Virus record (IMG/VR): IMGVR_UViG_3300009636_000009
Location: 1-50,824 of that record
Reading direction: 5' to 3' (one strand)
DNA length: 50,824 nucleotides
From: a virus
The number at the start of each line of letters is the position of its first letter. Position 1 is the first letter of the stretch. The notes beneath the pieces are model-generated. The model made no database searches, was not told the origin of the DNA, and worked only from the letters and a program-made list of their open reading frames with translations. Both the position numbers and the translations under genes were made by a program. This document shows positions 5,244 to 25,263 of the stretch, piece by piece.

Positions 5244-5525
5244 TTATTTTCCAAGATACTTTTTGACCCAAGGTGATAGAGGAAATCTATGAGGTTTTGA
5301 TACTTTTATTATTTGTTCATCTGTGGCTTCTAATGGACTGATTGACCCTCTAAACATAATAAGATACTTATTTTGTCGTTTACCTACAATTATTGCTGGA
5401 AGATTATCAAACCCCAATGGAGAATTAGGTCCTGTTAATGGACCCTTCCCAGTTGTAAGAACAAAATCTCCCACTTTTAAATTTTCACCTTGAAATTCAG
5501 TTAATAATGATTTAAGTTTAATCAT
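5244..5525 (-). CDS. Small probable head-associated protein with LLTE motif
   Basis: A 93-residue orphan. It begins MIKLKSLLTEFQGE, a short amphipathic helix ending in L-x-E, which resembles the T4 capsid-targeting and gp21-cleavage signal. The body is beta-rich (VGDFVLTTGKGPLTG, PAIIVGKRQNKYLIMFRG), reminiscent of a small SH3-like barrel, and ends with basic residues. It overlaps the end of the upstream SWIM-domain gene by 8 bp, suggesting coupled translation. Packaging into the head is inferred from the N-terminal motif and not shown by similarity. Confidence 0.75.
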   Translation of the reverse strand: MIKLKSLLTEFQGENLKVGDFVLTTGKGPLTGPNSPLGFDNLPAIIVGKRQNKYLIMFRGSISPLEATDEQIIKVSKPHRFPLSPWVKKYLGK

Positions 5526-6846
5526 AATAGGTTATATTAAATGGTCCTTGTTTTGCCACATCACCGATTGCTTCAAATAAATTACTTCTTCTAGTCGCTA
5601 ATATTTTTGTTTGTAAATATCTACGCAATGCTGCCAAGTGTTTACATAAGCCTTCACCATAATCATAAGCTGGTTTTGGTTTTCTATTAATACAACCGCT
5701 TAAACTGTCAGGTCCAATATCACTTGCACCTTTTTGAGTATCATTATAAGCAAATCTATACATGAAATCAGGACAACTACAATCAACTTTACACTCTAAA
5801 TTCATAGCATCATCACTTCGTTCTACTCTACCTTTTAAGAATGTAATATGACCTTCAAATGGTTCATCAGTTACAGTGGTTTGTGGACTGGATTTATATC
5901 TGAAATTCCATTGTTCTAATCCCTCTTCAATACTAACAGGAATAGAGCGAACTCTTACATTTGCTGCACGTTCTTTTCTTTCAGGAGTTGTTAAAGCTAA
6001 AAGTTCTTTATAAGTCATTGTTTCTTTAAGAAATATTCCTTCCTGTAACAAATTTTCAATTCTTCCACTCGTATCATCTCTAATTGTGTCACAATTCTTT
6101 TCTATTGCAAAATTCTTCATTGCTTTTATTTTTTGTGGAGAAGGCGGAAATCCTTTTTTATAATTATATGTCAGAATATCACCATCAAAATAACCAACTT
6201 TGACAACTCTAACAAATCCCAATTCATACATTCTATTATAAACACCCACATCATCATAATCACCATAAGATAATTTTTTTCCCATATTCTCTAAATAATT
6301 TCTTGCCCAATTTGCATGTCCTTCCCACGGAACTCTTTGAAACTGTAAATTTGGTTCTAACCAATAATATTCATTCTCTTCTCTTTCGTTTAGAAGAATT
6401 TGTTGAACAATTTCTTTTAGAAGCAATTTTAATTCACTTCTTTTTATCAGTGTAGCATTCTCAAATACAATGAATTTTGGACGCCCAGCGCCAAATGTAT
6501 TAATTAGTTTTTGATAAAGTAATTGTGGTATGTCATCTTCTGATGGCCTTCTATTACCAAATTTTCTAAGTTCATGTGCAGGAAAAACCACAGATATTGT
6601 ATTCTTTTTAGCATCATACCAACCTCTAAAATAATTTTCTCTATCAATACCAAAGTTGATACCATGCGTTTGTCCTTTTTTGTAGCGCAATATGTCATTT
6701 TTATAAATCCAACACCAATTTTTCCACGAAATATCTTCACCATCTTCATCTGACTGTCCTATTGACCAATAAGAGAGAGCCAATGCTTCTTTTTCAGCAT
6801 CTGACATATTATCATGATATGATTCCTTAAAAATAAAATCGGTCAT
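5518..6846 (-). CDS. Modular protein with internal targeting-like motif and SWIM zinc finger
   Basis: A 442-residue protein in at least three modules. Residues 1-130 contain GIDRENYFRGWYD and look like a separate domain. Residues 136-154 (RSELKLLLKEIVQQILL) match the amphipathic motif seen at the N-termini of neighbouring proteins. Residues 155-255 carry YWLEP, HANWARNYL and NRMYELGFVRVV. Residues 275-420 contain MTYKELLALTTPERKERA and a SWIM-type zinc site, CSC at 356-358 and CKH at 401-403 (CxC...CxH). SWIM domains bind nucleic acid or protein in other systems. The internal motif suggests a fusion of two formerly separate head proteins. It overlaps the next gene by 8 bp. Confidence 0.82.
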   Translation of the reverse strand: MTDFIFKESYHDNMSDAEKEALALSYWSIGQSDEDGEDISWKNWCWIYKNDILRYKKGQTHGINFGIDRENYFRGWYDAKKNTISVVFPAHELRKFGNRRPSEDDIPQLLYQKLINTFGAGRPKFIVFENATLIKRSELKLLLKEIVQQILLNEREENEYYWLEPNLQFQRVPWEGHANWARNYLENMGKKLSYGDYDDVGVYNRMYELGFVRVVKVGYFDGDILTYNYKKGFPPSPQKIKAMKNFAIEKNCDTIRDDTSGRIENLLQEGIFLKETMTYKELLALTTPERKERAANVRVRSIPVSIEEGLEQWNFRYKSSPQTTVTDEPFEGHITFLKGRVERSDDAMNLECKVDCSCPDFMYRFAYNDTQKGASDIGPDSLSGCINRKPKPAYDYGEGLCKHLAALRRYLQTKILATRRSNLFEAIGDVAKQGPFNITYYD

Positions 6847-6851
6847 ATTGA

Positions 6852-6859
6852 TATAAATA
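6852..6859 (-). promoter_or_regulatory. TATTTATA box before the SWIM-protein gene
   Basis: Coding-strand TATTTATA ending five bases before the ATG at 6846, in the short gap after the previous gene. Confidence 0.4.
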
Positions 6860-6867
6860 TAAAAATT

Positions 6868-7257
6868 TTAAAGGTTAGTTGGAGTAGTTTTAACTATGGA
6901 ATAATATACATCATTATTTTCACCATAATCATATACATCCTTTACTAAAATTCTTAAAATTTTCTCACCCGGTACATGCCATTTTCCATCAGGTGGACCA
7001 GCATGTTTTAACCCACCAAGACTGGTAGCTGCAAATACATTTCCCTTACTACTATGAAGTATAATCAACAACCCTTTTGATATTGGATGAAAAATTGAAA
7101 ATTGAATTGAATAATCAATAGGTAAACTCTGTACTATTTTCCATAGTTCTTCTTCATCATCAGGTATTAACTTTTGTGGAGTTGGTTCACCAAACTGTTC
7201 TTTAAAAATACAATATACAATCTCTTTAATAAGTTGTTTAAGTTGACTTTGCTTCAT
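6868..7257 (-). CDS. Probable head-internal protein with N-terminal targeting-like helix
   Basis: A 129-residue orphan beginning MKQSQLKQLIKEIVYCIFKEQ, the clearest copy of the recurring helix whose LIKE tetrapeptide fits the (I/L)xE rule for T4 gp21 cleavage. The remainder has a proline-rich linker and a compact alpha/beta domain with LLIILHSSKGNVFAATSLGG. No catalytic motif is visible. The gene stands 21 bp upstream of the SWIM-domain gene and is preceded by a TATTTATA box, so it may head a transcription unit running to 4250. Confidence 0.78.
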   Translation of the reverse strand: MKQSQLKQLIKEIVYCIFKEQFGEPTPQKLIPDDEEELWKIVQSLPIDYSIQFSIFHPISKGLLIILHSSKGNVFAATSLGGLKHAGPPDGKWHVPGEKILRILVKDVYDYGENNDVYYSIVKTTPTNL

Positions 7258-7264
7258 ATTCTAA

Positions 7265-7272
7265 TATAAATA
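7265..7272 (-). promoter_or_regulatory. TATTTATA box before the 7257 start
   Basis: Coding-strand TATTTATA ending seven bases before the ATG at 7257 and just downstream of the terminator hairpin at 7305-7324. A promoter here would restart transcription after termination. Confidence 0.45.
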
Positions 7273-7286
7273 TTCAATTTTTATTG

Positions 7287-7324
7287 AATAAATGCAAAAG
7301 AAAAGAGCCGAAGAAATTCGGCTC
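7287..7324 (-). terminator. Rho-independent terminator T1
   Basis: Perfect 8-bp stem (7305-7312 with 7317-7324), GC-rich GAGCCGAA, with a four-base loop. On the minus strand it is followed by TTTTCTTTTG. It lies 21 bp past the stop of the fibre-like gene at 7346. Its 24-base flank at 7287-7310 is identical to that of the terminator at 8889-8926. Confidence 0.85.
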
Positions 7325-7345
7325 CTTTGTATTCAAATATTAAAA

Positions 7346-7900
7346 TTATTCTGCATTCACTTGAATTACAAAATTATTCCATGATGATAACCCACCTATA
7401 GGATTATCACCATAAGTAGTAGCTTTCCAAAGTGCCCAACTAGCTTCATAACCAACAGTACGATTAGTAGTCCTAACAGTAACAATATTTTCATTAATAT
7501 TCCAAAAGATTTGACCAGTACTGGCACCACCCACGGTTGCTGCGCCATTAATAGTGCTAATATCTAACAATGACCCTGATTGATAACCACTAGTCCCATC
7601 ATTATTAATACACAAGATTCCTACTCCTGTTCTAAAAGGAATAAACGGTAACGAAATATTGTACATATATGGTCCACTTGCAAATGACGCAGTAGTTGTA
7701 TATCTCAAAACAGAGGTTGGTGGTGCCCAAGATGATGACATAGATGAACTTGCCCAAGAACATGAAATCTGTTGTTGTGTTAATAACGTCCAAGATGAGC
7801 TTATAGCATAGCTTGAACTAATTGATTGATCTGCAAATGAAGCAGATGTTAAAACTAAAGATGCTGAAGTATCACATAAATGGATAGATAGATTTGTCAT
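7346..7900 (-). CDS. Small fibre-like structural protein with SSSYA/SASWA linkers
   Basis: A 184-residue protein whose first 75 residues are linker units (SISSSYAISSSW, SCSWASSSMSSSW) like those of the giant fibre gene. The C-terminal half is a glycine-, serine- and aromatic-rich beta domain (TGVGILCINNDGTSGY, GQIFWNINENIVTVRT). No enzyme motif is present. The gene is followed by terminator T1 and preceded by a TATTTATA box at 7935-7942, so it may be its own unit within a two-gene cassette. A short fibre, or a decoration anchored through its linkers, is the likeliest role; this is inferred from composition. Confidence 0.78.
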   Translation of the reverse strand: MTNLSIHLCDTSASLVLTSASFADQSISSSYAISSSWTLLTQQQISCSWASSSMSSSWAPPTSVLRYTTTASFASGPYMYNISLPFIPFRTGVGILCINNDGTSGYQSGSLLDISTINGAATVGGASTGQIFWNINENIVTVRTTNRTVGYEASWALWKATTYGDNPIGGLSSWNNFVIQVNAE

Positions 7901-7934
7901 AATATTTTAACTGTTAAATATAACTTTATTGCAC

Positions 7935-7942
7935 TATAAATA
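7935..7942 (-). promoter_or_regulatory. TATTTATA box upstream of the 7900 gene
   Basis: Coding-strand TATTTATA 34 bases upstream of the ATG at 7900, inside the 81-bp gap after the methyltransferase gene. The spacing would allow a conventional short leader. Confidence 0.4.
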
Positions 7943-7981
7943 TCTAAAAATAAAATATTATTTCAAATTTCTTTCTTTATT

Positions 7982-8839
7982 TTAACCTAAATTTTTTTTA
8001 TTTATAGCCACAAATCTCATAGTACTTTTATGATTAAGTATATAATCTTTTAAATCAGTAAAAATTCTTTGCCTAAAAATATAACTTGGAAGAGAATTTT
8101 GGTCATACAAAAGACCTGTAGTATAAAAAATATAATCCTTTTGAGGTATATAATCACATAATTTTTCTATATTCCAACCAAGTTCTATACATTCATTTCT
8201 ATGTGTTTCAATAAATAAATCTACAGCATCGTTTGATAATGTTTCTTGAGCTTTTTCAAGTATTGGTACTTCGTATCCCTCTACATCTATTTTTATTAAA
8301 TTTGGTTTTATATTATTTGATTTAACAAAATTATCTAAGGTATCAATATTAACTTCATGTATTTTAGCATTTTCAGGATTACTATTAATCTCAGCATCAG
8401 ACACTTTAAAGTTTGGGTCGTTTGTAAATCGTGCCATATTAGTATTGTGATAATAACATTTTCCAACATAATTATTTAACCCAATTGGATGTGTACTTAA
8501 ATTCCAATTATTTAATTTAGCAGTATTTTGTAATCTCTCACAATGAGAACGAATAGGTTCTATTGAATAACATCGATGGTCTTTTACTAAAGAACAATAT
8601 ACCGAAGAAACTATTCCACAATATGTTCCAATATCAATAAAAACACTCGGAGAATTTTCTATACAATATAATTTAAAAGCTGTCATTTCAGAAACTATTT
8701 CTGGGTTTGAATTCCAGATAGATTCTGGTCCCACTTCAATACACTTATACCGTCTATGCCATTCATAAATATTATCGTCCATTTTCCATTCTACACCATG
8801 TACATTCGCTATTTTCATAATTTTTGATTTATATTCCAT
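7982..8839 (-). CDS. FkbM-family methyltransferase
   Basis: SAM-dependent methyltransferase of the FkbM type. Visible motifs are FIDIGTYCGIVSS (SAM-binding motif I), YSIEPI (motif II acidic position), a PIGLNNYVG strand and KIDVEGYEVPILEKA, which is the family's diagnostic block. FkbM enzymes commonly O-methylate sugars or small molecules; the substrate here is unknown. I prefer the ATG at 8839: the frame also opens at a TTG at 8899, but that lies inside the terminator flank and would add a hydrophobic stretch unlike the family start. The ATG at 8818 is another option. The gene sits between terminators T2 and T1, directly behind the capsid gene, in a cargo ('moron'-like) position. It could modify virion glycans or host surface sugars. 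Confidence 0.85.
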   Translation of the reverse strand: MEYKSKIMKIANVHGVEWKMDDNIYEWHRRYKCIEVGPESIWNSNPEIVSEMTAFKLYCIENSPSVFIDIGTYCGIVSSVYCSLVKDHRCYSIEPIRSHCERLQNTAKLNNWNLSTHPIGLNNYVGKCYYHNTNMARFTNDPNFKVSDAEINSNPENAKIHEVNIDTLDNFVKSNNIKPNLIKIDVEGYEVPILEKAQETLSNDAVDLFIETHRNECIELGWNIEKLCDYIPQKDYIFYTTGLLYDQNSLPSYIFRQRIFTDLKDYILNHKSTMRFVAINKKNLG

Positions 8840-8888
8840 AGATATCAAAATTCTACAATAAAATCTAAACAAGAATGAAATAAAATTA

Positions 8889-8930
8889 AATAAATGCAAA
8901 AGAAAAGAGCCGTATTTCTACGGCTCCTTT
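8889..8930 (-). terminator. Rho-independent terminator T2 behind the major capsid gene
   Basis: Perfect 8-bp stem (8907-8914 with 8919-8926, GAGCCGTA) and a four-base loop. The minus strand continues into TTTTCTTTTG and the plus strand into CTTTTTT, so it can act in both directions. It lies 30 bp past the capsid stop and shares 24 identical bases with T1. Confidence 0.88.
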
Positions 8931-8956
8931 TTTGTTTAATTGATTATCTGTTAAGA

Positions 8957-10804
8957 TTATACCGTGTCCAAATCGGCAATGTAAATCTTGCCATAGAATT
9001 CAGGACGAACAATCTTCTTCGCGTAACGGGTCATTACACCACGTCTTGGCGTGAAGTTCACAGGGTCATACACTAACGGTGTCTGAACCAATGGAATGTA
9101 TGGAGCATATACTGCACCAGTTTCCAAGAAGTTATTACCACGGAAGCCCATTAGAATGATATTATCAGTCATATATGGGTTCTTGTAAACTTGGAACCTT
9201 GAAGCAAATGAACCAACCCTTGAAACGCCCATAGCAAACTTTGCTTGGTCGCCATCGGTATTCACTACGAATCCCGGAATAGATTCAAGAACAGTTGCCA
9301 CTGTTGGGGAGATAACCATGAAGTTAGCACCACCACGAAGCGTCAATTGGTGAATCCTGTTGGATACCTTTTGAATCTTGTTACCAAGAGTTTGGTACCA
9401 TGTTGCCTTGGTGTAGTAACCACCAGTACCTGCCGTTGTTGTTTGAACGAATTGGTAAGTACCAGTTCCAGTAGGAACTATTTCCGTATTAAGCCTTGCA
9501 CTCCAACGTTCAATATTGATAGGTAATACTGCGTTAATCAACATATCAAGAATTTCAAGGTCAATTTCCATTGAAACATATTCAGACAACAGAGCAGTCA
9601 ATTCTGCTTCTGCGTCAATGCTATGATAAGCATTCAAGTCTTGAGCAAGTTCAGGAGTCCAGACAGCTTTCAACTTACGTGTCTTAGCTACGATTGGTTC
9701 GGAGTTAAGTTGCAAGTTTACTTCTGGAATACCGATATCCTTGTTAAGACCAGTATCAGTAGTTGACTTACCTGTTCCATAAACAAATCCCGTATCAGTA
9801 CCAGTAGCATTAGCATTGTTTGGATTATCTTCGAAGTCACCACGGTCTTGTGGGCTTGGTTGAACTGTGTAATAAATATTACCAGTGAAGGAACCAGTAG
9901 CACCAGCCGAAGCTGATAAGACAAACTGGATTTCACCAACCTGAGCACCACCAGCATCGATACCAGTACCCACTACAAATTTTGTAAATGGTGGGAAATA
10001 CATAGGACCGGAGCCGGCAGCACTACCTGATTGAAATGAAGCAGTTAGCCCTGCTGTAGATCCAGTAACAATGCTATATGGCATGAATGAACGAACAGCT
10101 AATGGGTCAAACGGATTACCTTGACTAGTCGTAGTACTATAAAAATTTGAAGTTTTAAAAGTAATAAGCTGATTGTTATTAAACGATGCTGAAATACTAT
10201 TCAAAATTCCTTGTACTGAACCAGATGAGGCATATTGAGTATAATAATTAGCCAACCAGTCAATATCTTCCAATGTTGATGTAGCTGCACTAAATGTTAC
10301 TGCAGTTGCAGCTTTTTGATTAATGGTGTAACCATATCGGCCTGCGCCGTATAGACCACCGCCGAATGTATCAGTAGAACCTAGTTTAGCACCAGTACCA
10401 CCGAACAATGATTGATAATATGAACCTGATGTATCGGCAGGATTACCACCGTGAGGTGAGCCATACTTGAAATCCAAGTAGAACACAAGACCAGATGGGA
10501 GGTTCATAGGCTGAACGGATACGAATTCCTTCGCAGCAAATTCAGCAAATACACGTCTGACCAACGGGAGAGCTACGCCAGCCCACTGTTCAGAGTTTGC
10601 GGAAGTACCAGTAGCAGTTGCTTCTTCAATCAGTTGTTTAGCCTGATTTTCGAGCAAGACCGACATATTGGACTTCTCAATATCACTCTTAATACCATCA
10701 AGAAGACCGGTTTTATCCCACTTGGTCACAAGACCACGGGTTTCCTGCATCAAACGAGCTTGAGGATTGAGAGTGTTTGTTAACAATGATTTAATATTTT
10801 CCAT
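8957..10804 (-). CDS. Major capsid protein, T4 gp23-like
   Basis: A 615-residue precursor (T4 gp23 has 521). Family landmarks are SVQPMNLPSGLVFYLDFKYG near residue 97 and, at the C-terminus, YAPYIPLVQTPLVYDP and RRGVMTRYAKKIV. The first 61 residues form a charged helical propeptide ending IEE-A; this fits the (I/L)xE rule for the T4 prohead protease, and T4 gp23 is cut at a similar place (after Glu65). Mature chains would start at Ala62. Residues 130-330 hold Gly/Ser/Thr-rich insertions relative to T4. The gene follows the scaffold gene by 42 bp and ends at terminator T2, so the two are probably co-transcribed late. No strong Shine-Dalgarno is seen; the leader is A-rich. Confidence 0.97.
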   Translation of the reverse strand: MENIKSLLTNTLNPQARLMQETRGLVTKWDKTGLLDGIKSDIEKSNMSVLLENQAKQLIEEATATGTSANSEQWAGVALPLVRRVFAEFAAKEFVSVQPMNLPSGLVFYLDFKYGSPHGGNPADTSGSYYQSLFGGTGAKLGSTDTFGGGLYGAGRYGYTINQKAATAVTFSAATSTLEDIDWLANYYTQYASSGSVQGILNSISASFNNNQLITFKTSNFYSTTTSQGNPFDPLAVRSFMPYSIVTGSTAGLTASFQSGSAAGSGPMYFPPFTKFVVGTGIDAGGAQVGEIQFVLSASAGATGSFTGNIYYTVQPSPQDRGDFEDNPNNANATGTDTGFVYGTGKSTTDTGLNKDIGIPEVNLQLNSEPIVAKTRKLKAVWTPELAQDLNAYHSIDAEAELTALLSEYVSMEIDLEILDMLINAVLPINIERWSARLNTEIVPTGTGTYQFVQTTTAGTGGYYTKATWYQTLGNKIQKVSNRIHQLTLRGGANFMVISPTVATVLESIPGFVVNTDGDQAKFAMGVSRVGSFASRFQVYKNPYMTDNIILMGFRGNNFLETGAVYAPYIPLVQTPLVYDPVNFTPRRGVMTRYAKKIVRPEFYGKIYIADLDTV

Positions 10805-10846
10805 ATATTGTTTTTTCTCTATTTTTATTTTTTGCTCACTAGATTA

Positions 10847-12439
10847 TTACTTCTTTTCAGGAGTAGTAGTCTTCGGTGTATCTTTGATTCCAGCGAGCTT
10901 CTTGAATCTAAGAGCCATCTCATTACCTTCAGTAATTAACTTGGAAGGTTTTGTTGATGACACCGGCTTTGATGCGAATCCTTCGGTAATTTGCTTAACT
11001 TGTCCCTTTTGCGAAACCGGTTTTACAACCGATTTTACAGAGTGGGTTTTTGTCATTTGCGTACCGAAATTCAAGGACTCCGCCAATAGGGCGTAGGCCA
11101 GCTTGACTTCACGAACACTTTTTGTTAGGTCAAATGATTCAACGATTTTCATACGATATGAATCGTCCAAAACACCTGCGAATTCTTTAAACAACTTGTT
11201 CGTGTAAAGTAGTTTAGCATTCAACAGATTGACCTCATTAATTTGTCCACGGAGGAATTCAATGGTTTTATAGGCTTCTTTCAAAGCAACCCTGTATTGA
11301 GATGCTTCTGCCATTGGTTTACCTGTTTCAGACCCACTACCAATGTTGCCTTTACCTTGAATATTATGATTTTTACCCGGTAGCTGTCTCTTACTAGCAT
11401 CTGGACCGGGTGGATAACCCTTTACACCACCGGTTTTGTCCTGACCAGCAAGTTCTTTGGTTGGAAGACCTTGATTTTGTAAGGCTTCATCCATTTCTTC
11501 ATACCCTTCTTCTTCCTCTTCTTCTTCGCCTTCTTCATTAAGAGCGGCGAGTAATTCATCTAGATTGATATTTTCTTCATCTTCTGCAGCTCCAACAGGT
11601 TCTTCAACCGGTTCTTCAGCAGGTTCTCTAACTGGTCGCCTACTTGCTCCACCAGCATCCATAGCTGTTGGGGGGACTGTATCAGCTCCCGGTTCAGCTT
11701 CTGGTTCCGGTTCAAGATTAATATCAACTTCACTACCCGGTTCTGCTTCAATATTGGCAGCAGGTTCTTCGTCACCAGTAACGGGTTCTCTTTCATCACC
11801 AGTAACAGGCGATGACACTCCACCACTATCTTCTGGTGCTGGTGTTAGTTCTGGAGCAGCAGGTTCTTCTTCCGTTCTACCTTCTTCTTCCTCTGCTACT
11901 TCATTTTCCAACTCTGCAATAATTTCATCTAAATCTTCCGAAGTTAGACCAGCTTCTTCAACCCTACCCTCATCTTCCTCCTCGCCCTCTTCTTCCCTTC
12001 TACCTTCATCTTCCTCTTCGGCAGTTTCATCCATTTTCTTCCTACCTTCATCTTCCTCTTCTTCTTCTTCGGCAGTTTCATTAACTTTCTTACCGAGTTT
12101 AGGAACGCCTGTTGGGCCTAATCCAGCTTGAACGGCTTTAAAATCCACATCACCGGCGCCACCTTTTGGTGTTTTGGGATTACCTTTAGAAACGGCTTTG
12201 GTTGCTGGTCCCTTAGCTTCTCCACCACTTCCATGAACCTGATTTGGAGCTTCTACTTCCTGTAGTCCCTCTTCTTGGTCTTCTTCTTCTTCGGATTCCT
12301 CTTTTAATTTGTCGGCAAACATTGCCTCAAAACGGGGAGCGAAGGCTTCTTCAAGAGCGGCTTTAGCATTGGCGAGAGCAGTGGCTCTTACTGCCTTAGC
12401 ATCAGCAATCGCTTCTTTCAATAGTTCACTATTAATCAT
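10847..12439 (-). CDS. Prohead core scaffold protein, T4 gp22-like
   Basis: A 530-residue, very acidic protein (T4 gp22 has 269). Residues 1-45 are an alanine-rich helix, about 45-330 are Glu/Asp/Gly/Pro tracts with repeated EEEDEGR units, and about 375-455 are helical with LRGQINEVNLLNAKLLYTNK and KIVESFD, a block I associate with gp22-type core proteins. Near the C-terminus are two ITEG sites (about 483 and 502), matching the (I/L)xE cleavage rule; T4 gp22 is likewise degraded to small acidic peptides. It lies immediately upstream of the capsid gene, as in T4. The acidic tract lies on a long purine-rich strand with short GAA repeats, prone to length change. Confidence 0.9.
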   Translation of the reverse strand: MINSELLKEAIADAKAVRATALANAKAALEEAFAPRFEAMFADKLKEESEEEEDQEEGLQEVEAPNQVHGSGGEAKGPATKAVSKGNPKTPKGGAGDVDFKAVQAGLGPTGVPKLGKKVNETAEEEEEEDEGRKKMDETAEEEDEGRREEEGEEEDEGRVEEAGLTSEDLDEIIAELENEVAEEEEGRTEEEPAAPELTPAPEDSGGVSSPVTGDEREPVTGDEEPAANIEAEPGSEVDINLEPEPEAEPGADTVPPTAMDAGGASRRPVREPAEEPVEEPVGAAEDEENINLDELLAALNEEGEEEEEEEGYEEMDEALQNQGLPTKELAGQDKTGGVKGYPPGPDASKRQLPGKNHNIQGKGNIGSGSETGKPMAEASQYRVALKEAYKTIEFLRGQINEVNLLNAKLLYTNKLFKEFAGVLDDSYRMKIVESFDLTKSVREVKLAYALLAESLNFGTQMTKTHSVKSVVKPVSQKGQVKQITEGFASKPVSSTKPSKLITEGNEMALRFKKLAGIKDTPKTTTPEKK

Positions 12440-13446: not shown

Positions 13447-13447
13447 T

Positions 13448-13750
13448 ATGATTAAACTTACAGAATTATTAAAACATATTGTTAGCGACGAACGTGATAA
13501 AGGATTAACTCCGGTTGATAATTGGAAAGCAACCGATGCTATGTATCTTGAAGATATGGGTTTTAAAAATGATGGTATGTTTTATTATGCTCTTAAAAGA
13601 CCAGAAATGAGATTAAGCCATAAAAAAGGCACAGGTTTTATTATTGAAGATAGAACAAAAAAAGAAAAACGAACATTCCTAAAATTTAAAGACCTTGAAG
13701 AATATTTTGCTAATTATAAGCAAAAATGGGAAAACCGGCCCTATTTATAA
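13448..13750 (+). CDS. Small hypothetical protein, 100 aa
   Basis: Begins MIKLTELLKHIVSDERD, a helix related to the recurring targeting-like motif, though without a clean (I/L)xE. The remainder is an alpha/beta domain (YYALKRPEMRLSHKKG, KFKDLEEYFANYKQKW). It starts one base after the preceding stop and overlaps the annotated start of the following gene by 25 bp. No function is recognised. Confidence 0.75.
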   Translation: MIKLTELLKHIVSDERDKGLTPVDNWKATDAMYLEDMGFKNDGMFYYALKRPEMRLSHKKGTGFIIEDRTKKEKRTFLKFKDLEEYFANYKQKWENRPYL

Positions 13751-14538
13751 GACATATGAATGGCGATTGGAGCCCAGCTGAAAAAGATCCACAACTTGAT
13801 ACTGATATCAAGAGATTAACGGGCATTGACAGAAAAAAAGCTATTATCGATAAAATTTGTCCTTTCTGTCATAAACCTGTAGATGTGAATAAATTTCGTG
13901 ATGAACAAAGTAGAAAAGAATTTAGAATTAGTGGTCTTTGCCAAAACTGTCAAGATAAAATGTTTGGGAAAGAAGAAGAAACCGAAAATCTTATGAAAGA
14001 AAATTTAGAAGTACAAGAGTTTAGTCTAAAGAAAATTGTTGAAAATTTATCCAATATTCCCAGAGATGGTGGTGCTAGATTTGGTGATGAAGTTAAAAAA
14101 CTTTCCCCACAACAAAAAAAAGAATTGATGGAGAAGGTTAGCAAATTCAACGAATATGGAAAAGTTTTACGATGTGAAACGGCTTTAATGGAAATGGCAA
14201 AAAATCTTTCTGAAATTGGTCAAATGGCAGAATCTTACGCTATGACCGAATCTGGTGATTATTTTCAAGCCGAAGTTGTCAAAAGAGATTTTAATGAAGT
14301 AAAAAAGATTACCAAAGATTTTTCAAAACGAGCCAAAGAATGTTACGGTGGTCTTCAGCAATTAAATGCTCTTTACGAAGATATGGGTAGAAAAATGGAA
14401 AGATATTTTGAAATACAATCCTTGGACGAAATTGCTTCTGCAATTCCACAACAAGAAATTTCAGCACCTGCTCCAAGAATAGGTGAAGTATCGGATGAAG
14501 AAGAAAGTCTTACCGAACAACACTTAAAAAAAAATTAA
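13726..14538 (+). CDS. Zinc-finger helical phage protein; probable upstream part of a frameshifted product
   Basis: A 270-residue protein. Residues about 45-84 hold CPFC and CQNC, a four-cysteine zinc site of a type common in phage orphans. Residues 90-245 are long charged helices, probably coiled coil (VENLSN, KRDFNEVKKITKDFSKRAKECYGGLQQL). The ATG at 13726 overlaps the previous gene; the ATG at 13756 (MNGDWSP) starts just after its stop and is equally plausible. The ORF ends in a nine-A run (14526-14534) followed by TTAA. Slipping back one base there joins it in frame to the next ORF, see 14601-15134. Confidence 0.8.
   Translation: MGKPALFIRHMNGDWSPAEKDPQLDTDIKRLTGIDRKKAIIDKICPFCHKPVDVNKFRDEQSRKEFRISGLCQNCQDKMFGKEEETENLMKENLEVQEFSLKKIVENLSNIPRDGGARFGDEVKKLSPQQKKELMEKVSKFNEYGKVLRCETALMEMAKNLSEIGQMAESYAMTESGDYFQAEVVKRDFNEVKKITKDFSKRAKECYGGLQQLNALYEDMGRKMERYFEIQSLDEIASAIPQQEISAPAPRIGEVSDEEESLTEQHLKKN
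14523..14538 (+). promoter_or_regulatory. Poly-A slippery site, candidate -1 frameshift
   Basis: Nine consecutive A residues (14526-14534) directly before the zero-frame TAA at 14536. A -1 shift reads through into a frame open from about 14499 to 15134. The downstream frame has no ATG or GTG start before a TTG at 14601, which has no recognisable ribosome-binding site. Confidence 0.6.
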
Positions 14539-16187: not shown

Positions 16188-16190
16188 AGT

Positions 16191-17864: not shown

Positions 17865-17894
17865 ATAGATAGTTTATCAGAGAAAGCATAAATG

Positions 17895-18065
17895 TCAAGC
17901 GTTCTTAAGAATCACTTCCCTAAGATTGTCCAAGAGTTCTATGTAAAAAATTATTTTTAAATAATGACCATCATTTCCATACCAGTTTATATCCAATGGA
18001 TAACACAATCCTCTATGAAAATGATATTTTAACATTCTCTTAAAAATTTTATTATATTTTTCCAT
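17895..18065 (-). CDS. Small ORF, 56 aa, coupled to upstream gene
   Basis: Starts at the ATG at 18065, sharing one base with the TAA of the upstream gene (TAATG), and ends with TGA at 17895. The product is aromatic and basic (MEKYNKIFKRMLKYHF, GNDGHYLKIIFYIELLDNL) and looks folded and protein-like. It fills most of a 200-bp gap otherwise without a gene. Function unknown. Confidence 0.55.
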   Translation of the reverse strand: MEKYNKIFKRMLKYHFHRGLCYPLDINWYGNDGHYLKIIFYIELLDNLREVILKNA

Positions 18066-18791: not shown

Positions 18792-18830
18792 AATTATAAA
18801 GAAAATATCACACTTTATTACAAAAGTCAA

Positions 18831-19352
18831 TTATTTAATTTCTTTAAACGGCGGCGGACACAACATATCAACAAATTTCATTACCTTTTTATAAACTTCA
18901 TCCTCTTTAGTAAAGCAATATTTTTTGGTTGCAACTTCATCAATCCAATTTCGTAAGTCGGTTCCAAATTCCTCACTTCTTGCTTTAATATCACAGCAAA
19001 ATTCTGCCAAATATACATCAGGCATTTCTTTAATGCCACCCGGCCAAGCTTCGGGGTGATGTTTATTTGTAGAATTATGATGATGAATTGCCAATTTCAT
19101 TTTCAATTTAGCAACATCTTCTACAGGATTTCCAAGAGAAAGATATTCCCACTCTATACCAAAAAATTTAGATGCATCGTGTACCATTCCATTAGCAACC
19201 AAATTTCTAGCTAATTCCACTTCACCCAAAGCCAATAATTTTTCTGCTAATATTACGCAATTATCTTCCACATTGCGAATATGTCTCGCAATTAGGCGAA
19301 TTTTTTCCATCGTTTTTTCAGCTTCCTTGCGGAGCCGTTCGGTTCTTTTCAT
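18831..19352 (-). CDS. DUF5662-like protein
   Basis: A 173-residue protein with the histidine-rich pattern of the DUF5662 family: HDASKFFGIEWEYL, HHHNSTNKHHPEAW and a later EFCCDIKARSEEFGTDLRNWIDE helix. The His/Asp arrangement suggests an HD-like metal centre, but the activity of the family is not established. The start overlaps the NADAR gene by 35 bp; the ATG at 19310 (MEKIRLIARH), eight bases after the NADAR stop, is an alternative. Its position between a NADAR enzyme and the nucleotidyltransferase hints at nucleotide or NAD metabolism, as inference. Confidence 0.75.
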   Translation of the reverse strand: MKRTERLRKEAEKTMEKIRLIARHIRNVEDNCVILAEKLLALGEVELARNLVANGMVHDASKFFGIEWEYLSLGNPVEDVAKLKMKLAIHHHNSTNKHHPEAWPGGIKEMPDVYLAEFCCDIKARSEEFGTDLRNWIDEVATKKYCFTKEDEVYKKVMKFVDMLCPPPFKEIK

Positions 19353-19782
19353 CTTGTAACTCTTTTCTTATTTCCATCCAAAGAATACCCAATCTGTTTT
19401 TTCCAGAACCATCACCACCATCAGCCCAATATCTATCCTTGAAACTATGTTCAACAATTTCTGCATCTCCAGTAGAAAGTAAAAGCTCCTTAATTTTAGG
19501 ATATTGTGCAATTTTAGCTAATAAAGCATCTTTCATAATGCTTTCTTTGACTTGTTCCCAATCAACTCTTAAAGGACGATTCCTGTCACGTCCTATTTCA
19601 GCAGCCGCTCGCGGGCCTTTGGCAAGCCTTACATCTTCTTCGTGTTCAGTTCCAGCGAATTTCTGTGATTGGAAATAATGCTCTGTAGTAGGCCACACTT
19701 TACCTTTCAAAACAATTGGATGTCTTGAAAAATTGGAAAAATCTCCATAAGGTTCTGCTATTCTATAGAATTCAATTTTCAT
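19318..19782 (-). CDS. NADAR-domain (YbiA-like) protein
   Basis: A 154-residue NADAR-family protein. Family landmarks are EPYGDFSNFSRHPI, WPTTEHYFQSQKF and KGPRAAAEIGRDRNRPLR near the middle, then YWADGGDGSGKNRLGILWMEIR at the end. NADAR proteins act on N-glycosidic bonds of ADP-ribose-like substrates: YbiA on riboflavin intermediates, others removing ADP-ribose from guanine bases. A phage copy could reverse DarT-type ADP-ribosylation of its DNA, or affect NAD-based defence; this is inference. The ATG at 19782 is preferred over an upstream in-frame ATG at 19842, which adds 20 hydrophobic residues outside the family. Confidence 0.88.
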   Translation of the reverse strand: MKIEFYRIAEPYGDFSNFSRHPIVLKGKVWPTTEHYFQSQKFAGTEHEEDVRLAKGPRAAAEIGRDRNRPLRVDWEQVKESIMKDALLAKIAQYPKIKELLLSTGDAEIVEHSFKDRYWADGGDGSGKNRLGILWMEIRKELQDEKNRTAPQGS

Positions 19783-19881
19783 AATAAAAATATAATACCA
19801 CAAAATTCGCGGATTGTCAATGAAAAGATAAATCTTATCCATTTAACGGCAATTAATGTTAAACTGAATATTTTGAATATA

Positions 19882-21147
19882 TTAAGAAGGATTCTTTGAA
19901 CTAACAGGAGGTAGATAACGTTTAACAAACGGTTGTAATTTTTGAGTAAGGTCCACATTTCTTGCAGTATATTTACCAGCTAAATCCCAAGGACTCATAC
20001 CTTTTTCTGATGGTAATGGTTCGTTTGGATTGGGCATATCAATATGACCCGGTTTTATTATTTGACCCCATATTTGTTTAGCCTTTTCTGCTGTTCGTTG
20101 AGCTGGTGGTACTTGATTCCACATTTGTCTAGCCGTCATTACAATTTGTTGTCCAGCAGGTGTTTGACTCCAATGTTGAGCGGTTTTTGTTCCAAAAGGA
20201 GTATGCAATCCAGCATATCCAACCAAAGCGGCGCTTGCTAATGCTTTCCATTTATTACTAATTTCATCTTGTCGAAATTGTTCAGAATAAATTTCTCTGA
20301 CAATTTCTTTAATAATAAATTTTAATTCTGACCTATTTACTTTCTCTTGTAACATTGAACTAGTTGGTTCGTATTTCCACACTGCTGTATTCCAATGCCC
20401 TAATAATTTGCGAAAATCATTTTCATTATAACAACATATTTGTCTTGGAAATTTTTTCTTTGTAGGAACATGTTCTTCTGTGTAGGGGAAAATTTTCATA
20501 CCCGGAGGACACTTTTCTTTTTTTAGGTCAATATGACAATATGTTACACCATATTCTTTATAATATTTTGGTTCCTTTTTTGTTATAGGGTGTGAAATCC
20601 ATCTATCATCTGCACCTGCCCATCCTTGAGCTTCTTGTAATTTTCTGTATTCTTCCCATATTCCTGCCCCACCTTCATCCTCTATCATTTCCCTAGCAGT
20701 TTCTATAGCTTGACGAATAGCAGCTTCATAATTATTCTCCTTTAACACTTCTTCTATTGCATCCAATCCATTTGCAAATATAGCAGTATCAGCTAAATCT
20801 GCTGATAATAATCCAAGTCTTCTTTCTAAAACGGTATCTATTAATTTTACACCAGTTTGTCTATCTCCGACTTCTTTTCGCCATTTTTCAATTGTAGCAA
20901 CACTTTTTGGAGATATTGCTTCATTCAAATCATTTTCAAAAAATTTTGGTTTTTCTAATGGATTTTGTTTTTTATGTTTAATATCCCAAGAATGTTCAGC
21001 CCATGCACCACAATTTAAACATTGATATCCTTTTTTTCCTTTCCATGTAATATCATTAGCAGTACAATTACGAGATAACCCATTTTCAAGTAATTTTGCC
21101 TGCTTTATAATTTCTGAAATTATCAATTTTAATTGTGATTTCTTCAT
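19882..21147 (-). CDS. Modular probable head-internal protein with two targeting-like helices
   Basis: A 421-residue orphan built of modules. The N-terminus, MKKSQLKLIISEIIKQAKLLENG, and an internal copy at about 271-291, NRSELKFIIKEIVREIYSEQ, are two versions of the recurring amphipathic helix with an (I/L)xE end (IISE, IIKE). Between them lie a CLNC element (43-46), a long helix (TAREMIEDEGGAGIWEEYRKL) and a cysteine-containing segment (ICCYNENDFRKLLGHWNTAVWKY). After the internal copy comes a short apolar stretch and a Trp/Gln/Pro-rich tail. If the phage protease cuts at these sites, the ORF yields at least two packaged peptides. It lies next to the protease gene. Confidence 0.8.
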   Translation of the reverse strand: MKKSQLKLIISEIIKQAKLLENGLSRNCTANDITWKGKKGYQCLNCGAWAEHSWDIKHKKQNPLEKPKFFENDLNEAISPKSVATIEKWRKEVGDRQTGVKLIDTVLERRLGLLSADLADTAIFANGLDAIEEVLKENNYEAAIRQAIETAREMIEDEGGAGIWEEYRKLQEAQGWAGADDRWISHPITKKEPKYYKEYGVTYCHIDLKKEKCPPGMKIFPYTEEHVPTKKKFPRQICCYNENDFRKLLGHWNTAVWKYEPTSSMLQEKVNRSELKFIIKEIVREIYSEQFRQDEISNKWKALASAALVGYAGLHTPFGTKTAQHWSQTPAGQQIVMTARQMWNQVPPAQRTAEKAKQIWGQIIKPGHIDMPNPNEPLPSEKGMSPWDLAGKYTARNVDLTQKLQPFVKRYLPPVSSKNPS

Positions 21148-21153
21148 CTATTA

Positions 21154-21456
21154 TTACTTTAATTTGAAAGTATTTCCACTAACATTTTCAAATATAGGAT
21201 ATTTTGATTCTTCTTCAACGTTTTTTGTAGTTATAAGGTCTTGTAAAATAACTTTAATCTTTTCAAGCAACCGTATAGCATCTTGATGTGACAATGTTCG
21301 TGGATTATAGCCAATGTTATCCAAAATAGTTTGAATAGTTTCTTTAGCTCTCCCCGGTACTGAAACAGTGGATTTAAATCCTAATGGCGCTGAAGTACTA
21401 GACTTAGTTGGTTTTGCTATTATTTCATGTATTTTATTTTTCATATAATTATTCAA
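21154..21456 (-). CDS. Small helical hypothetical protein, 100 aa
   Basis: Begins MNNYMKNKIHEIIAKP, a weak relative of the recurring N-terminal helix. It then has a Ser/Thr-rich linker (TKSSTSAPLGFKSTVSVPGR) and a helical core (AKETIQTILDNIGYNPRTLSHQDAIRLLEKIKVILQDL). It overlaps the protease gene by 8 bp, so the two are likely coupled. A head-internal or assembly role is inferred from position only. Confidence 0.7.
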   Translation of the reverse strand: MNNYMKNKIHEIIAKPTKSSTSAPLGFKSTVSVPGRAKETIQTILDNIGYNPRTLSHQDAIRLLEKIKVILQDLITTKNVEEESKYPIFENVSGNTFKLK

Positions 21457-22078
21457 TTTCAGTTAAAATATCTCTTACAATATTCTCAACCCTTTCCCAT
21501 TTTTGGGTAATTGGATTTTGAATAGTGGTTTTAACACCTTCCTGAAGAGTACCCGATGGAAACATGAAGGCGCCCCTTGTACTAGGATTTGATACAAAAT
21601 CAAACGCTATAAGTTCAAAATCATCTTGAACCACATCTGCATCTTCATTTATACTTTTATTGACTGTTCCCAATCCACGACTGGAAATTCCAAGTCGAAT
21701 ATTGGCTTTAAATAATTCCTTTAAAATATTTCCATTTGGAGTAGGTAAAACTTCAACAGTTCCCATAAGGTCATCACCTTCCCAATGTAATTCTACAACA
21801 TTATGAGACACATTTTGTAAGTTTACAACTGAGCTTTCTGGATGGTCAAGTTCTCCCAATGCTCTTCTTTCTTTTACAAAGTTTTCCTCATATTTTTTTG
21901 ATTCACGAAAAAGTACATCTTTCTTATATAGCCTACCGTTTTGATTTTTTATATTTGCTCGTTGTAAAATACCCTTGACAACCAATCGTCTTCCATCAGT
22001 ACGAATAGCTTCTTCAAAGAGATTATCTTTGATAAATTCAAAGGTTATACAATCAACTAATAATTGTTTAGTATTCAT
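21449..22078 (-). CDS. Prohead core protease, T4 gp21-like
   Basis: A 209-residue serine protease of the phage prohead type (T4 gp21 has 212). The catalytic region reads GELDHPES (His79), then NVSHNVVELHWEGDDLMG, and GISSRGLG (Ser132/133), followed by FDFVSNPSTRGAFMFP; these are the hallmark blocks of the family. It should cut core and capsid proteins after (I/L)xE during maturation, inside the prohead. Candidate substrates here include the capsid precursor (IEE61), the scaffold (two ITEG sites) and the many proteins with LIKE-type N-termini. It is encoded between portal-linked genes and the scaffold, as in T4. Confidence 0.94.
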   Translation of the reverse strand: MNTKQLLVDCITFEFIKDNLFEEAIRTDGRRLVVKGILQRANIKNQNGRLYKKDVLFRESKKYEENFVKERRALGELDHPESSVVNLQNVSHNVVELHWEGDDLMGTVEVLPTPNGNILKELFKANIRLGISSRGLGTVNKSINEDADVVQDDFELIAFDFVSNPSTRGAFMFPSGTLQEGVKTTIQNPITQKWERVENIVRDILTEIE

Positions 22079-22079
22079 A

Positions 22080-23210
22080 TTAAACGTTCCATCCTATCTC
22101 TTTAACATATTCCAAGAGATAATATCTACCATTTTTAACTATATCAACCAAACCTTTCGAATATTGGCCATAATACGTTTGTCGTCTCATAGCATCAATT
22201 GCAGCCAATTTTATATCTCTGTTATCTATATTATTTATCATATGATTTTCAGGAATCAATAACTGGTACTTGATTTTGGTAGTATTTACATTTTCAGCTA
22301 ATATTTTTGATGTTTTCTTTATATAAGGAAGAAAATTAACTTTTCCATTTTCATCTTTTATACTATCAGACATAAATTCTACAAGAAATATATTTAAATC
22401 TTTTTGAATCCATTCAGCTACAGGTGGAAGTTTCTTTTTCTTTTTACGATGTGGAATCTCCGGTTCTGGTTCTGCCAGCGATGGCTCTGCTGGAGCTGGT
22501 GCTTGTTTTGGCACCGTTTGTTGTGGAGCCATTGGTGCTGGCTCTTGAGTAGGAACCATTGGAACAGCCTGTGGTGGTTGTTCTTCTGGTGAGGGTGCTG
22601 ATGGAGATGCTACATTTGGTTCTTCTTCATCACCAGCTTTTGGTGGTTGTTCCGCTGGTTGTTCTTGTGGTGGAACTTCTGGACCTGCTATTGGTTTTTC
22701 TTCTGCACCCGGAGCAGGTTGAGAACCTTCACTTTCAATTTTAATATTTATACCCGGAGTTAAAAAGTATTTCTTATCATTTTGGTCGGTTGCTATCACC
22801 ACATAATCCTTATACCAAAATTCTACACTAATTTTCTTAATATTTTCTATAGTGTAATCGGTTTTTGGTTGTCCATAACCGCGTGAAGCATTAGCAACAA
22901 CAGTTTTGTTCAAAAGTCTTTTGTTCATTTTATCCAAAAGAACCTTCTTAGCATCAGATTCAGCCTTGTTCTTTTTATCCTCAAATGCCCTAAAATCACG
23001 AGTGAAATCATATTCCGATGGGTCTTCCGGTTCAGGTGATGTTTCTGCAGGTGGAGGGGTTGGTGGTACCTCTTCTGCCGCAGCACCGCCTGCGCTCATA
23101 CCTGCGGGAAGAACAGGAGCAGGCACAGGAGTAGCCGGGCTTGCCATTGGTGGCTGTGGAGCCTGTTCAGTTAAATTCAACAAATTTCTTAATTTAATTT
23201 TCTTACTCAT
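22080..23210 (-). CDS. Proline-rich probable prohead core / head-internal protein
   Basis: A 376-residue protein starting MSKKIKLRNLLNLTEQAPQPP, whose LTE fits the prohead-protease rule. Two long Pro/Ala/Glu tracts (about 17-65 and 160-250) surround a small beta domain (NIKKISVEFWYKDYVVIATDQNDKKYFL), and a helical C-terminal domain follows from about 260 (WIQKDLNIFLVEFMSDSIKDE, AAIDAMRRQTYYGQYSKGLV). Disordered Pro/Glu segments of this kind occur in phage core proteins. It begins one base before the end of the 683-residue gene's spacer and ends one base before the protease start, so all three are co-expressed. Confidence 0.78.
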   Translation of the reverse strand: MSKKIKLRNLLNLTEQAPQPPMASPATPVPAPVLPAGMSAGGAAAEEVPPTPPPAETSPEPEDPSEYDFTRDFRAFEDKKNKAESDAKKVLLDKMNKRLLNKTVVANASRGYGQPKTDYTIENIKKISVEFWYKDYVVIATDQNDKKYFLTPGINIKIESEGSQPAPGAEEKPIAGPEVPPQEQPAEQPPKAGDEEEPNVASPSAPSPEEQPPQAVPMVPTQEPAPMAPQQTVPKQAPAPAEPSLAEPEPEIPHRKKKKKLPPVAEWIQKDLNIFLVEFMSDSIKDENGKVNFLPYIKKTSKILAENVNTTKIKYQLLIPENHMINNIDNRDIKLAAIDAMRRQTYYGQYSKGLVDIVKNGRYYLLEYVKEIGWNV

Positions 23211-23211
23211 A

Positions 23212-25263
23212 TTACTTCACCTTCTCTAAAATACTTTCTACTACTTTAAATCCTAACTTTTTAGTTACATCTAATGCTCTTTGACTACCACTTTTCTTTT
23301 TAGAAAATGCAAATGGTGTAGCATATCCAGCTATAGCACCCGTTGCTGTCATTTCCTGAATATTTTCTTCTTCCTCTGGAGGAAAATTTCTAACTGTTTT
23401 AAGAGTTGGTACAAATTTCTCTTGCTCTTCATCCCATACTTCAAAAGGATTATTTATACCATGAAATCTTATAAATTTTCTTTCCCATCTTGGTGGCCCC
23501 AAAATAATTTCAAACACAATATCAGTAGGAGTAATTTTATATAATACTTTAATATTTTCAATATTTCCTACAGGGACCTTAAAAAATCTAGAAGCTGCAT
23601 TTCTTACTTTTTTAATTATAGAATAATCCATTCCTAACCTATGGAGTCCTGACCTATGTATTTCTTCTAATTTTTTTCTCGATTCCAATTCTCTTGCTTT
23701 TAAATATTTTTTTAAATCTCCCACGGTTTTTACTGTACCACCCTTTATTTCATTCATAATTTGATTTTTAACAAATTCAATATCTGCATCTTTTAGTCTT
23801 GGATTATGTGCTTTTATCAAATCAAGCATCATATTTATGTTATCTTGTGTTATCTCTATTTTCTCCCACTCACCACCACCAGCGTAAATGTTAGAACCAC
23901 GGTTAATTATACGGTTTAATAACATATAAATAAAAGCAATACCCCCTACTGCGGCAGCCGTAGTCAAACCTACACCAATTTCAGAAAGACCAGAAATTCT
24001 TTTTGACCTAACACCACTTTCCATATCATCTTGATACTTTCCATCAGGACCGATTTTTTCTCTTATTTTCTTTTTAAACACATATGGAGTAGCATATCCA
24101 CCAACTGCACCCATTTGTTCCTCATAATCTTCTGGTTCAATCGGTTCATCCACATCTGCTTGAGTATATGGTCTAAGAATTTCTGGACGATATTTTGATA
24201 GTTTCTGCTTTCTACATTTATCACACGCTCTTACCAAAGGAATACCCTGACCATCACGTTCCCATTTACTAGGTAATCCACTACCACAGTCGCATGTTCT
24301 TTCCTCATTTTCTTCTGCAACGTTCACAGCTTTCATTGTGCCACCAAGACCCACATCAGCTGCTAAGTCGGCTCTCGTAGTCATTTTTTCATGAATAATA
24401 GGAGTAGCAGATACTTTTCCATTTACAGAACCATCTGGTCCAATTATTACTTCATCACTGGCAAATCTACCACCCGATTTAGTCATAATAACATTTATAG
24501 TTCTGTCACTTATAGGCGACGTAGATTTTATATGATACCCTCTCCTTTCAAAATGATTAACTGCTCTTGTTTGTGATGATGTTTGTTTACTCAATTCATG
24601 TAAAGAAACTCCACGTTCAGAACCTCCAGCGCCACCACCAACAAAACTAAGATATTTACTAAGATTTATATGTGGCTCATTAATACTTCCATCTGGTTTT
24701 ATATTTGCAACTCTTGTTACTGGACTACCAAGCTTCCCTTTATGTCTTATGAGAATTATACCTACGCCATCTGATGTTGGATAAGTATTTCTAAGAATAA
24801 ATCCTATTTTTTTCAATGTGTTAATAGCTCGTTTCTGAGTTATTGTAGCTTGATGAATATCTGGACCAACACCAAGTATCTCATTCAATATAGCTTTTTC
24901 TACCATATTTTTAATCCGAAATTTAAGATGTAATTTTTTTTCAACAATAGAAAAATCTAAACCTCCACCCGTAAGGCTCATAGGAATATCAGATGCAGCC
25001 TTTCCAGTCACAGAACCATTAGGATTTACTAATGCTTCTTCATGGCCATATTTTCCACCCGATTTATCCATAATAACTATTACAGTTTTACCTGTTGTAT
25101 CTGCAGGCATTGTGGATGTAACACGATAATTAAGTTTTTCCAAATATTGCACAACTCCCTTCTGTTGTGGTGTTTGTTTATTTAACTCACTAGGAGAAAC
25201 CCATCGTCCTAATTGTTCTTCAACCACATTTTTAATCAATGATTGGAATTGAGATTTTTTCAC
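23212..25263 (-). CDS. Large modular head-internal candidate: triple repeat domain, zinc site, membrane-like helix
   Basis: A 683-residue protein. Residues 1-20 (MKKSQFQSLIKNVVEEQLGR) and about 111-131 (LHLKFRIKNMVEKAILNEIL) are variants of the targeting-like helix. Three copies of a ~65-residue alpha/beta domain (about 24-88, 137-195, 222-283) share L.KQT..Q..AV..(L/F)E...Y, V.IVIM.KSGG.(Y/F) and NGSV.G patterns. A four-cysteine site (CDC at 324, CDKC at 347) is followed by KYRPEILRPYTQADVDEP. Then comes GGYATPYVFKKK (about 388), a hydrophobic segment (about 427-455), a mixed domain, and a second copy, AGYATPFAFSKKK (about 645). Function unknown; it is positioned between portal and protease, like T4 core genes. 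Confidence 0.8.
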   Translation of the reverse strand: MKKSQFQSLIKNVVEEQLGRWVSPSELNKQTPQQKGVVQYLEKLNYRVTSTMPADTTGKTVIVIMDKSGGKYGHEEALVNPNGSVTGKAASDIPMSLTGGGLDFSIVEKKLHLKFRIKNMVEKAILNEILGVGPDIHQATITQKRAINTLKKIGFILRNTYPTSDGVGIILIRHKGKLGSPVTRVANIKPDGSINEPHINLSKYLSFVGGGAGGSERGVSLHELSKQTSSQTRAVNHFERRGYHIKSTSPISDRTINVIMTKSGGRFASDEVIIGPDGSVNGKVSATPIIHEKMTTRADLAADVGLGGTMKAVNVAEENEERTCDCGSGLPSKWERDGQGIPLVRACDKCRKQKLSKYRPEILRPYTQADVDEPIEPEDYEEQMGAVGGYATPYVFKKKIREKIGPDGKYQDDMESGVRSKRISGLSEIGVGLTTAAAVGGIAFIYMLLNRIINRGSNIYAGGGEWEKIEITQDNINMMLDLIKAHNPRLKDADIEFVKNQIMNEIKGGTVKTVGDLKKYLKARELESRKKLEEIHRSGLHRLGMDYSIIKKVRNAASRFFKVPVGNIENIKVLYKITPTDIVFEIILGPPRWERKFIRFHGINNPFEVWDEEQEKFVPTLKTVRNFPPEEEENIQEMTATGAIAGYATPFAFSKKKSGSQRALDVTKKLGFKVVESILEKVK

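Follow-up and report, generated by a model that had tools for sequence, protein, structure and literature searches.

The short N-terminal helices that recur on otherwise unrelated proteins in a 50.8-kb virus record (IMG/VR record IMGVR_UViG_3300009636_000009, 50,824 nucleotides; hereafter the window), which carries a T4-type head and tail module with almost everything on the minus strand, are probably capsid-targeting sequences removed by a gp21-type prohead protease, an elaboration of the system of phage T4. At the level of sequence, there is good support for the view that a large set of proteins share a tag for targeting and cleavage, namely the unrelated bodies behind the tag, a preference for Glu, the end of one tag class at [LI]xE, co-occurrence with proteases of the gp21 type (Peptidase_S77; S77 below), unlike tags on homologous bodies, and tagged genes that precede gp21. 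We infer binding, packaging, cutting, and injection of these proteins from T4.

We distinguished two tag classes, tag A (consensus MKKSELKQIIKEEIxKVLNE) and tag B (MIKLKxLLxE), each of which is found on dozens of unrelated bodies in contigs of environmental phages. An earlier note on this DNA had picked out five N-termini in the window, and all five are encoded where it placed them, in minus-strand open reading frames (ORFs). Tag A opens a 129-aa orphan without a PHROG or Pfam match (6868..7257; tag MKQSQLKQLIKEIVYCIFKE at 7198..7257) and an ORF holding two tagged units (19882..21147; tag MKKSQLKLIISEIIKQAKLLE at 21085..21147, for which a low-confidence model gives a helix at residues 3-21). 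A divergent tag A, VKKSQFQSLIKNVVEEQLGR (25204..25263), opens a core-like gene two before gp21 (23212..25263, GTG start). Tag B, MIKLKSLLTE (5496..5525), begins a 93-aa orphan without a Pfam match (5244..5525), and a tag-B-like MSKKIKLRNLLNLTE (23166..23210) begins the core-like gene directly before gp21 (22080..23210). Tag A is also found inside minus-strand ORFs: NRSELKFIIKEIVREIYSE (20281..20337) occupies residues 271-289 of 19882-21147, at the junction of its two units, and KRSELKLLLKEIVQQILLNE (6385..6444) occupies residues 135-154 of 5518..6846, an ORF with a PHROG 31560 match at residues 143-190 and a weak SWIM zinc finger below the cut-off.

To scan IMG/VR for tag A, we used the back-translated pattern MKKS[EQ]L[KR]x[IL]I[KR]E, which matched at least 120 stretches, compared with 0 for a permuted pattern and 0 for an arbitrary one. 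Among the matches listed, to which all counts of tagged bodies and contigs from these scans refer, there were 147 tagged ORFs (139 complete); the 137 bodies of at least 25 residues behind residue 24 formed 88 BLAST groups, 73 of them single and the largest with 28 members. Scored on one representative per body group (88), residues 13-20, which the pattern leaves unfixed, read E-I-x-K-V-L-N-E, and conservation ended after residue 20. An [LI]xE with Glu at residues 16-20 was present in 62/88 representatives, compared with 20.1 when residues 13-22 were shuffled, and one with Glu at residue 20 in 37/88, compared with 4.1. The cleavage code that the earlier note had proposed is partly supported; tag A is probably cut near residue 20 and not after IKE. 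The tag B pattern, MIK[LF]Kx[LF][LIM]xE, in which Glu10 is fixed by the pattern itself, also matched at least 120 stretches, compared with 44 for a permuted pattern; 132 of 145 were complete ORFs of at least 40 residues. They formed 77 groups, and beyond Glu10 no conservation was seen. The tag A pattern matched only 6 stretches in a prokaryote genome collection (257 Gb), in assemblies titled uncultured bins or metagenome-assembled genomes. Searches against phages yielded one weak record for the short tags (tblastn) and no match for the commonest tag A body family or for window positions 5000-25300 (megablast).

The tags track the protease. We compared contigs of at least 30 kb among the 80 matches listed per scan with control contigs obtained from random 15-mer matches, and found S77 in 19/25 tag A contigs, one of them Flavobacterium phage immuto (NC_055915), and 20/33 tag B contigs, compared with 4/29 random contigs. 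In contigs of at least 90 kb the counts were 11/12 with tag A and 1/7 random. The window itself encodes a gp21-type prohead protease (21449..22078, minus strand), as the earlier note had recognized: it matches Peptidase_S77 (PF03420, 8.7e-27, 94.3 bits compared with a cut-off of 27) and phrog_207, and an alignment with T4 gp21 shows that its His79 and Ser132/133, at the columns of the catalytic residues of T4 gp21, are invariant. Both the score and the retained residues place it in the family. In the major head protein gp23 (8957..10804, minus strand; phrog_138, 2.4e-67), a gp21 cut is predicted after Glu61 (QLIEE|ATATG), aligned with SFLTE|AEIGG of T4 gp23; the corresponding sites are QLISE|A in Mel-JY01 and QIVSE|A in immuto. 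Based on these alignments, the [LIV]xE|A maturation site is conserved in the window gp23. The T4 gp23 propeptide is 65 residues long according to the available text of PMC5694885.

The earlier note had also suggested searching all genes of the phage and its relatives, and this yielded an excess at N-termini. We used G001, a 365,299-base contig with gp21 and gp23 identical to those of the window, which was read in overlapping stretches and in which 433 genes were called by a simple coding score (435 in a rerun); the gp21 and gp23 of G002 are the same. A strict class A regular expression modelled on the motif of the earlier note had seven matches in six genes of G001, compared with 0.02 per shuffled proteome (433 genes), and 4/7 started within the first 15 residues. 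The reported recurrence in unrelated proteins therefore holds, with the addition that copies are internal as well as N-terminal. A profile built from these seven matches found weaker copies elsewhere in G001. Because the expression and the profile both derive from the motif of the earlier note, we also used a general core of hydrophobic residues and Glu, PHI-x-x-PHI-PHI-x-E, in register with MKTYQEFIAE of T4. We counted this core where it started at residues 2-14 and took the expectation from its internal density in the same proteins. The core was observed 41 times compared with 12.6 expected in G001, 24 compared with 6.1 in immuto, 16 compared with 6.0 in T4, and 38 compared with 18.5 in Atu_ph07; by genes, the counts were 9 and 2.2 in G002, 9 and 3.6 in G007, 4 and 2.6 in G006, and 2 and 0.9 in G009. 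Glu was enriched 3-4 fold at the core place of N-termini in G001 and immuto and Asp was not (14 compared with 12.7 in G001, 3 with 5.0 in immuto, 8 with 5.9 in T4, 7 with 6.0 in Mel-JY01, and 19 with 20.6 in Atu_ph07). With Glu one residue earlier the counts were 18 compared with 12.6 in G001 and 5 compared with 6.1 in immuto.

In T4, the core recovered IPII, IPIII, gp24, and Alt and missed IPI and other gp21 substrates, which have their sites elsewhere. It also matched T4 genes, DNA ligase among them, that are not known as internal or head genes, and a single loose match is therefore weak evidence. Such matches, together with the N-terminus of the window terminase (28521-30134), which starts with the tag-like PTLRDIIKEE, are what can be said for chance as the origin of the whole pattern, lysine-rich amphipathic N-termini being common. 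We regard this explanation as extremely improbable given the seven strict matches in G001 and the permuted patterns in IMG/VR, and for tag A it is already refuted; single loose matches may still be due to chance. The start of the terminase and that of window 36932-37864 (MLKESQLFSLLDKVL), a gene of zinc-finger and primase-like appearance, are probably chance matches of this kind and a caution for loose motif searches.

Amphipathicity, which the earlier note had made part of its motif, fared poorly: the helical moment of seven peptides was reached by 3 to 53% of shuffles. As the moments were ordinary for most tags, we no longer regard the amphipathic character of the helix as what defines them.

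The tags are modular. Homologous bodies carry unlike tags in a class A protein of L110 and a class B protein of L336 (42%, 2e-23), and in immuto 113188 (A) and L345 (B). Homologs of the polyA-polymerase, Mom, and lysozyme bodies of G001 are also tagged in other phages. Across six genomes, 8/19 homologs of bodies found by the pattern had a strict tag, compared with 71/1038 genes overall (p = 1e-5). These unlike tags on homologous bodies bear on an explanation in which the 5' ends came to be shared incidentally, through recombination or because A-rich starts were selected for easier translation. It could account for the predominance of AAA at Lys2 (84/88) and Lys3 (87/88) of tag A, and for runs of tagged neighbours such as L196:626-2543, where seven consecutive small genes all carry tag A and belong to separate body groups. 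We nevertheless consider it very unlikely, as codons vary at the tag Ile, Glu, Ser, and Leu and as both the preference for Glu and the unlike tags on homologous bodies speak against it.

Two of the five N-termini belong to genes that precede gp21, and here the earlier note, which had described the tagged genes as orphans, needs correction: 22080-23210 and 23212-25263 resemble head-core genes. In T4, the core genes 67 and 68 lie between 20 and 21. In most relatives both of the genes before gp21 are tagged, and their bodies vary. Relatives of 22080-23210 with 57-74% identity keep KLRNLLNLTE, some with one to three residues changed, and the N-terminus is more altered in distant relatives. Homologs of 23212-25263 have a class-A-like start in most relatives, the exceptions being L017, a 48-residue ORF in L020, and a cut L009. 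The length of this gene is very variable; tagged versions range from 73 residues in immuto to 747. Counterparts of its C-terminal end, EMTATGAIAGYATPFAFSKK, are found in relatives and in the immuto gene of 73 residues, which starts with MKKSQIVKAVQEVLEE and is also two genes before gp21. In seven distant relatives (L022-L025 and L028-L030), 22080-23210 and 23212-25263 both match one ORF.

The ORF at 19882-21147 has tags at residues 1 and 271; L073 has only its first unit, and L015 encodes the second in a reading frame of its own, which is untagged. A predicted model (mean pLDDT 45.9) has helices at 3-21 and 272-286; its quality was, in our view, insufficient for searching by fold. Such internal tags, which would cut proteins into pieces, and the two tagged core-like genes before gp21 fit an alternative in which the tag does no more than provide a site for gp21 to dock or cut, and the tagged proteins are fragments of scaffold or core meant for destruction rather than cargo. 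We consider this alternative unlikely, since in several cases the body consists of one enzyme-like domain that starts only after the tag (Ser_hydrolase from residue 28, Mom from residue 22, and PolyA_pol from residue 45).

Several observations weigh against a role in capsid targeting and cleavage. Glu one residue later was also enriched (19 compared with 8.1 in G001, 6 with 4.7 in immuto), as were hydrophobic residues at the Glu place (Leu 30 compared with 8.7, Ile 26 with 8.4, and Met 11 with 1.9 in G001; Leu 22 with 3.5 in immuto); signal peptides or membrane segments at N-termini would be expected to give the latter. Mel-JY01 has a gp21-type protease and little excess of the core (8 compared with 5.2), and CBB has S77, yet the core was found only 21 times compared with 14.0; with so small an excess, CBB was set aside as a test against published virion proteins. 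No S77 was detected in 6/25 tag A contigs (five of 41-60 kb and one of 105 kb), which may be fragments. Among homologs of tagged bodies, 11/19 had no strict tag; four of these had near-tags with His, Asn, or Asp in the place of Glu. In T4 IPIII, Asp at the Glu place blocked cutting and kept targeting (available text of PMC9026906). The earlier note had expected (I/L)xE in its tags, and this applies to tag A but not to window 23212-25263, which lacks [LI]xE in its first 20 residues. It had further named early enzymes as a contrast: the core was rarer in annotated enzymes, in the direction expected, but the difference was weak (1/43, a deoxyribonucleotidase, compared with 17/159 other genes in immuto, p = 0.07; 1/42, the ligase, compared with 11/187 in T4, p = 0.32). 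Upstream of tagged genes, a T4-like late promoter (TATAAATA) was not significantly enriched in G001, immuto, Mel-JY01, or T4. Lastly, Mom and lysozyme are cargo with no obvious reason for injection.

The hydrophobic residues at the Glu place would also fit helices that, during infection, hold proteins at some other site, such as the membrane, the host nucleoid, the tail, or the baseplate, with the protease irrelevant. This is the direction in which phage CBB points: it has a different shared N-terminus (MLPF), some of the bodies behind it have Laminin_G or Kelch domains, and 7/8 proteins of one such cluster are in a published virion list, probably on the outside of the particle. Anchoring of this kind is quite unlikely for tags A and B, in our judgement, because it would not account for Glu being enriched at a fixed place where Asp is not, for tag A conservation ending at [LI]xE, or for the association with S77.

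If the helices are instead targeting sequences cut by the gp21-type protease, they would bind the prohead core during head assembly and bring their proteins inside the head. The protease would then remove them after the Glu of [LI]xE, at about residue 20 in tag A and at residue 10 in tag B, leaving freed passengers inside the head, which would probably accompany the DNA into the next host. Tag copies inside ORFs would serve to separate fused passengers.

The capsid-targeting sequence of the T4 internal proteins IPI-III and Alt reportedly goes back to Mullaney and Black in 1996. It is also described in the available text of PMC9026906 and PMC9024508. Like the tags here, it is N-terminal, 10-20 residues long, ends at [LI]xE, and is found on diverse proteins of a phage with an S77 protease. 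Tag B shares the register of MKTYQEFIAE (hydrophobic residues at 4, 7, and 8 and Glu10), and tag A is shifted by two residues. The sequences themselves differ from those of T4, about thirty genes are loosely tagged in one genome where T4 has a handful, units are joined by internal copies, and the tag is also carried by genes preceding gp21. The T-even internal proteins are diverse defence proteins with only the targeting sequence in common (available text of PMC3012670), which by analogy would be the same logic on a small scale.

Other systems are similar in part. The signal of phage P1 DarB is N-terminal, of >9 and <30 residues, and directs a passenger into the capsid, but no consensus is reported for the N-termini of the Dar proteins in the available text of PMC9024508, and they are not recognizably the same sequence. 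The head propeptides of SPN3US are N-terminal, are cut after x-x-E by a gp21-related protease, and have been suggested to act in targeting; in contrast to the tags here, several exceed 100 residues and the specificity is A-X-E (PMC5694885, available text). Polyvalent proteins include ADP-ribosyltransferases and MPTase-PolyVal as cargo and have been proposed to be injected with the DNA, but they are large fused multidomain proteins, and tags A and B are not mentioned in the available parts of PMC5512222. MKKSELK was not found in the open-access literature searched, and the available text of open-access papers on capsid targeting (T4, P1, SPN3US, and reviews) yielded no description of tag A or B. 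For virion proteomes, the same literature gave CBB and Atu_ph07 and none for immuto.

We next characterized the passenger bodies. The 88 tag A representatives matched nine Pfam families with one member each: serine hydrolase, four alpha/beta hydrolase models, DUF5661, RelB-like, TraC_F_IV, and, weakly, Tox-ART-HYD1 (6e-4), the last a parallel to T4 Alt, which is an ADP-ribosyltransferase. They also matched six PHROG families, all nameless and with one member each. The 77 tag B representatives matched sixteen Pfam families with one member each, including Mom, polyA polymerase, lysozyme, Zeta toxin, SprT, HD, IF2_N, MPTase-PolyVal, and DUF5661. A cluster at 3-13 kb of G001 encodes an Acb1/2H-phosphoesterase-like protein (just below the cut-off), three acetyltransferases, a tRNA nucleotidyltransferase, and a lysozyme, all of them tagged, and a Mom protein and a serine hydrolase are tagged elsewhere in the contig. 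No DNA-replication families were seen among the Pfam results for these representatives and the tagged proteins of G001.

A wider reading seems to us evenly balanced between true and false: T4-like environmental phages may possess an open packaging code, in which N-terminal address tags, interchangeable and open to acquisition by any gene, load a counter-defence and host-takeover kit into the head for delivery with the DNA. The kit, held with the same reserve, would be large and fast-changing and would include ADP-ribosyltransferases, Acb1-like phosphoesterases, acetyltransferases, tRNA repair, zeta-type kinases, and many orphans. If this were true, the set of proteins injected by many uncultured phages could be predicted by reading the tags in their sequences and nothing else, and the tags would differ between lineages. 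Which proteins phages inject is a long-standing question that has so far needed purified virions of each phage; a tag readable from sequence would name candidates, most of them here without a family match, and could point to new anti-defence factors. Tags A and B are also two new candidate targeting peptides for loading foreign proteins into phage heads.

Elsewhere in the window, a gene at 10847..12439 (minus strand) precedes gp23 and has no strict tag; from gene order and acidic composition it is a probable gp22-like scaffold. Window 13726-14538 is homologous to class B tagged proteins and to the Mel-JY01 gene after gp21. The start of a G009 gene, MKENLEVKEFSLKKILEN, aligns with an internal Met of this ORF, so its true start may be internal.

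A third tag is found in immuto, as MENFDLKKFLVEN and MADNFNLRSFLTEN, on four proteins (1803, 103806, 117631, and 118632), in the same register as the T4 peptide. In CBB (L510 and KU574722), ten called proteins in six body groups share the N-terminus MLPF followed by Y(G/A)N; they are encoded at 344368-354701 and also at 75120 and 173132. From the cluster at 344-355 kb, CBB_536, 537, 548, 549, 551, 552, and 553 are in the published virion list and CBB_550 is absent from it (PMC5259590). Twelve proteins of Atu_ph07 (MF403008) start with M[KR]W..L.E, compared with 0.015 in shuffles (39484-49507, 290373, 304780, and 349666). Eleven of the twelve are paralogs, which ruled them out as independent evidence, and the unrelated twelfth weakly matches ART-PolyVal. 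Ten of the twelve are in virion-rich gene clusters per the available text of PMC6102473, if coding sequences are numbered by accession order. Finally, T4 gp61.1 (NC_000866, 18966-19130) starts with MKTFKEFIKE, like IPI (MKTFKEF) and IPIII (MKTYQEFIAE), and is a possible unrecognized internal protein.

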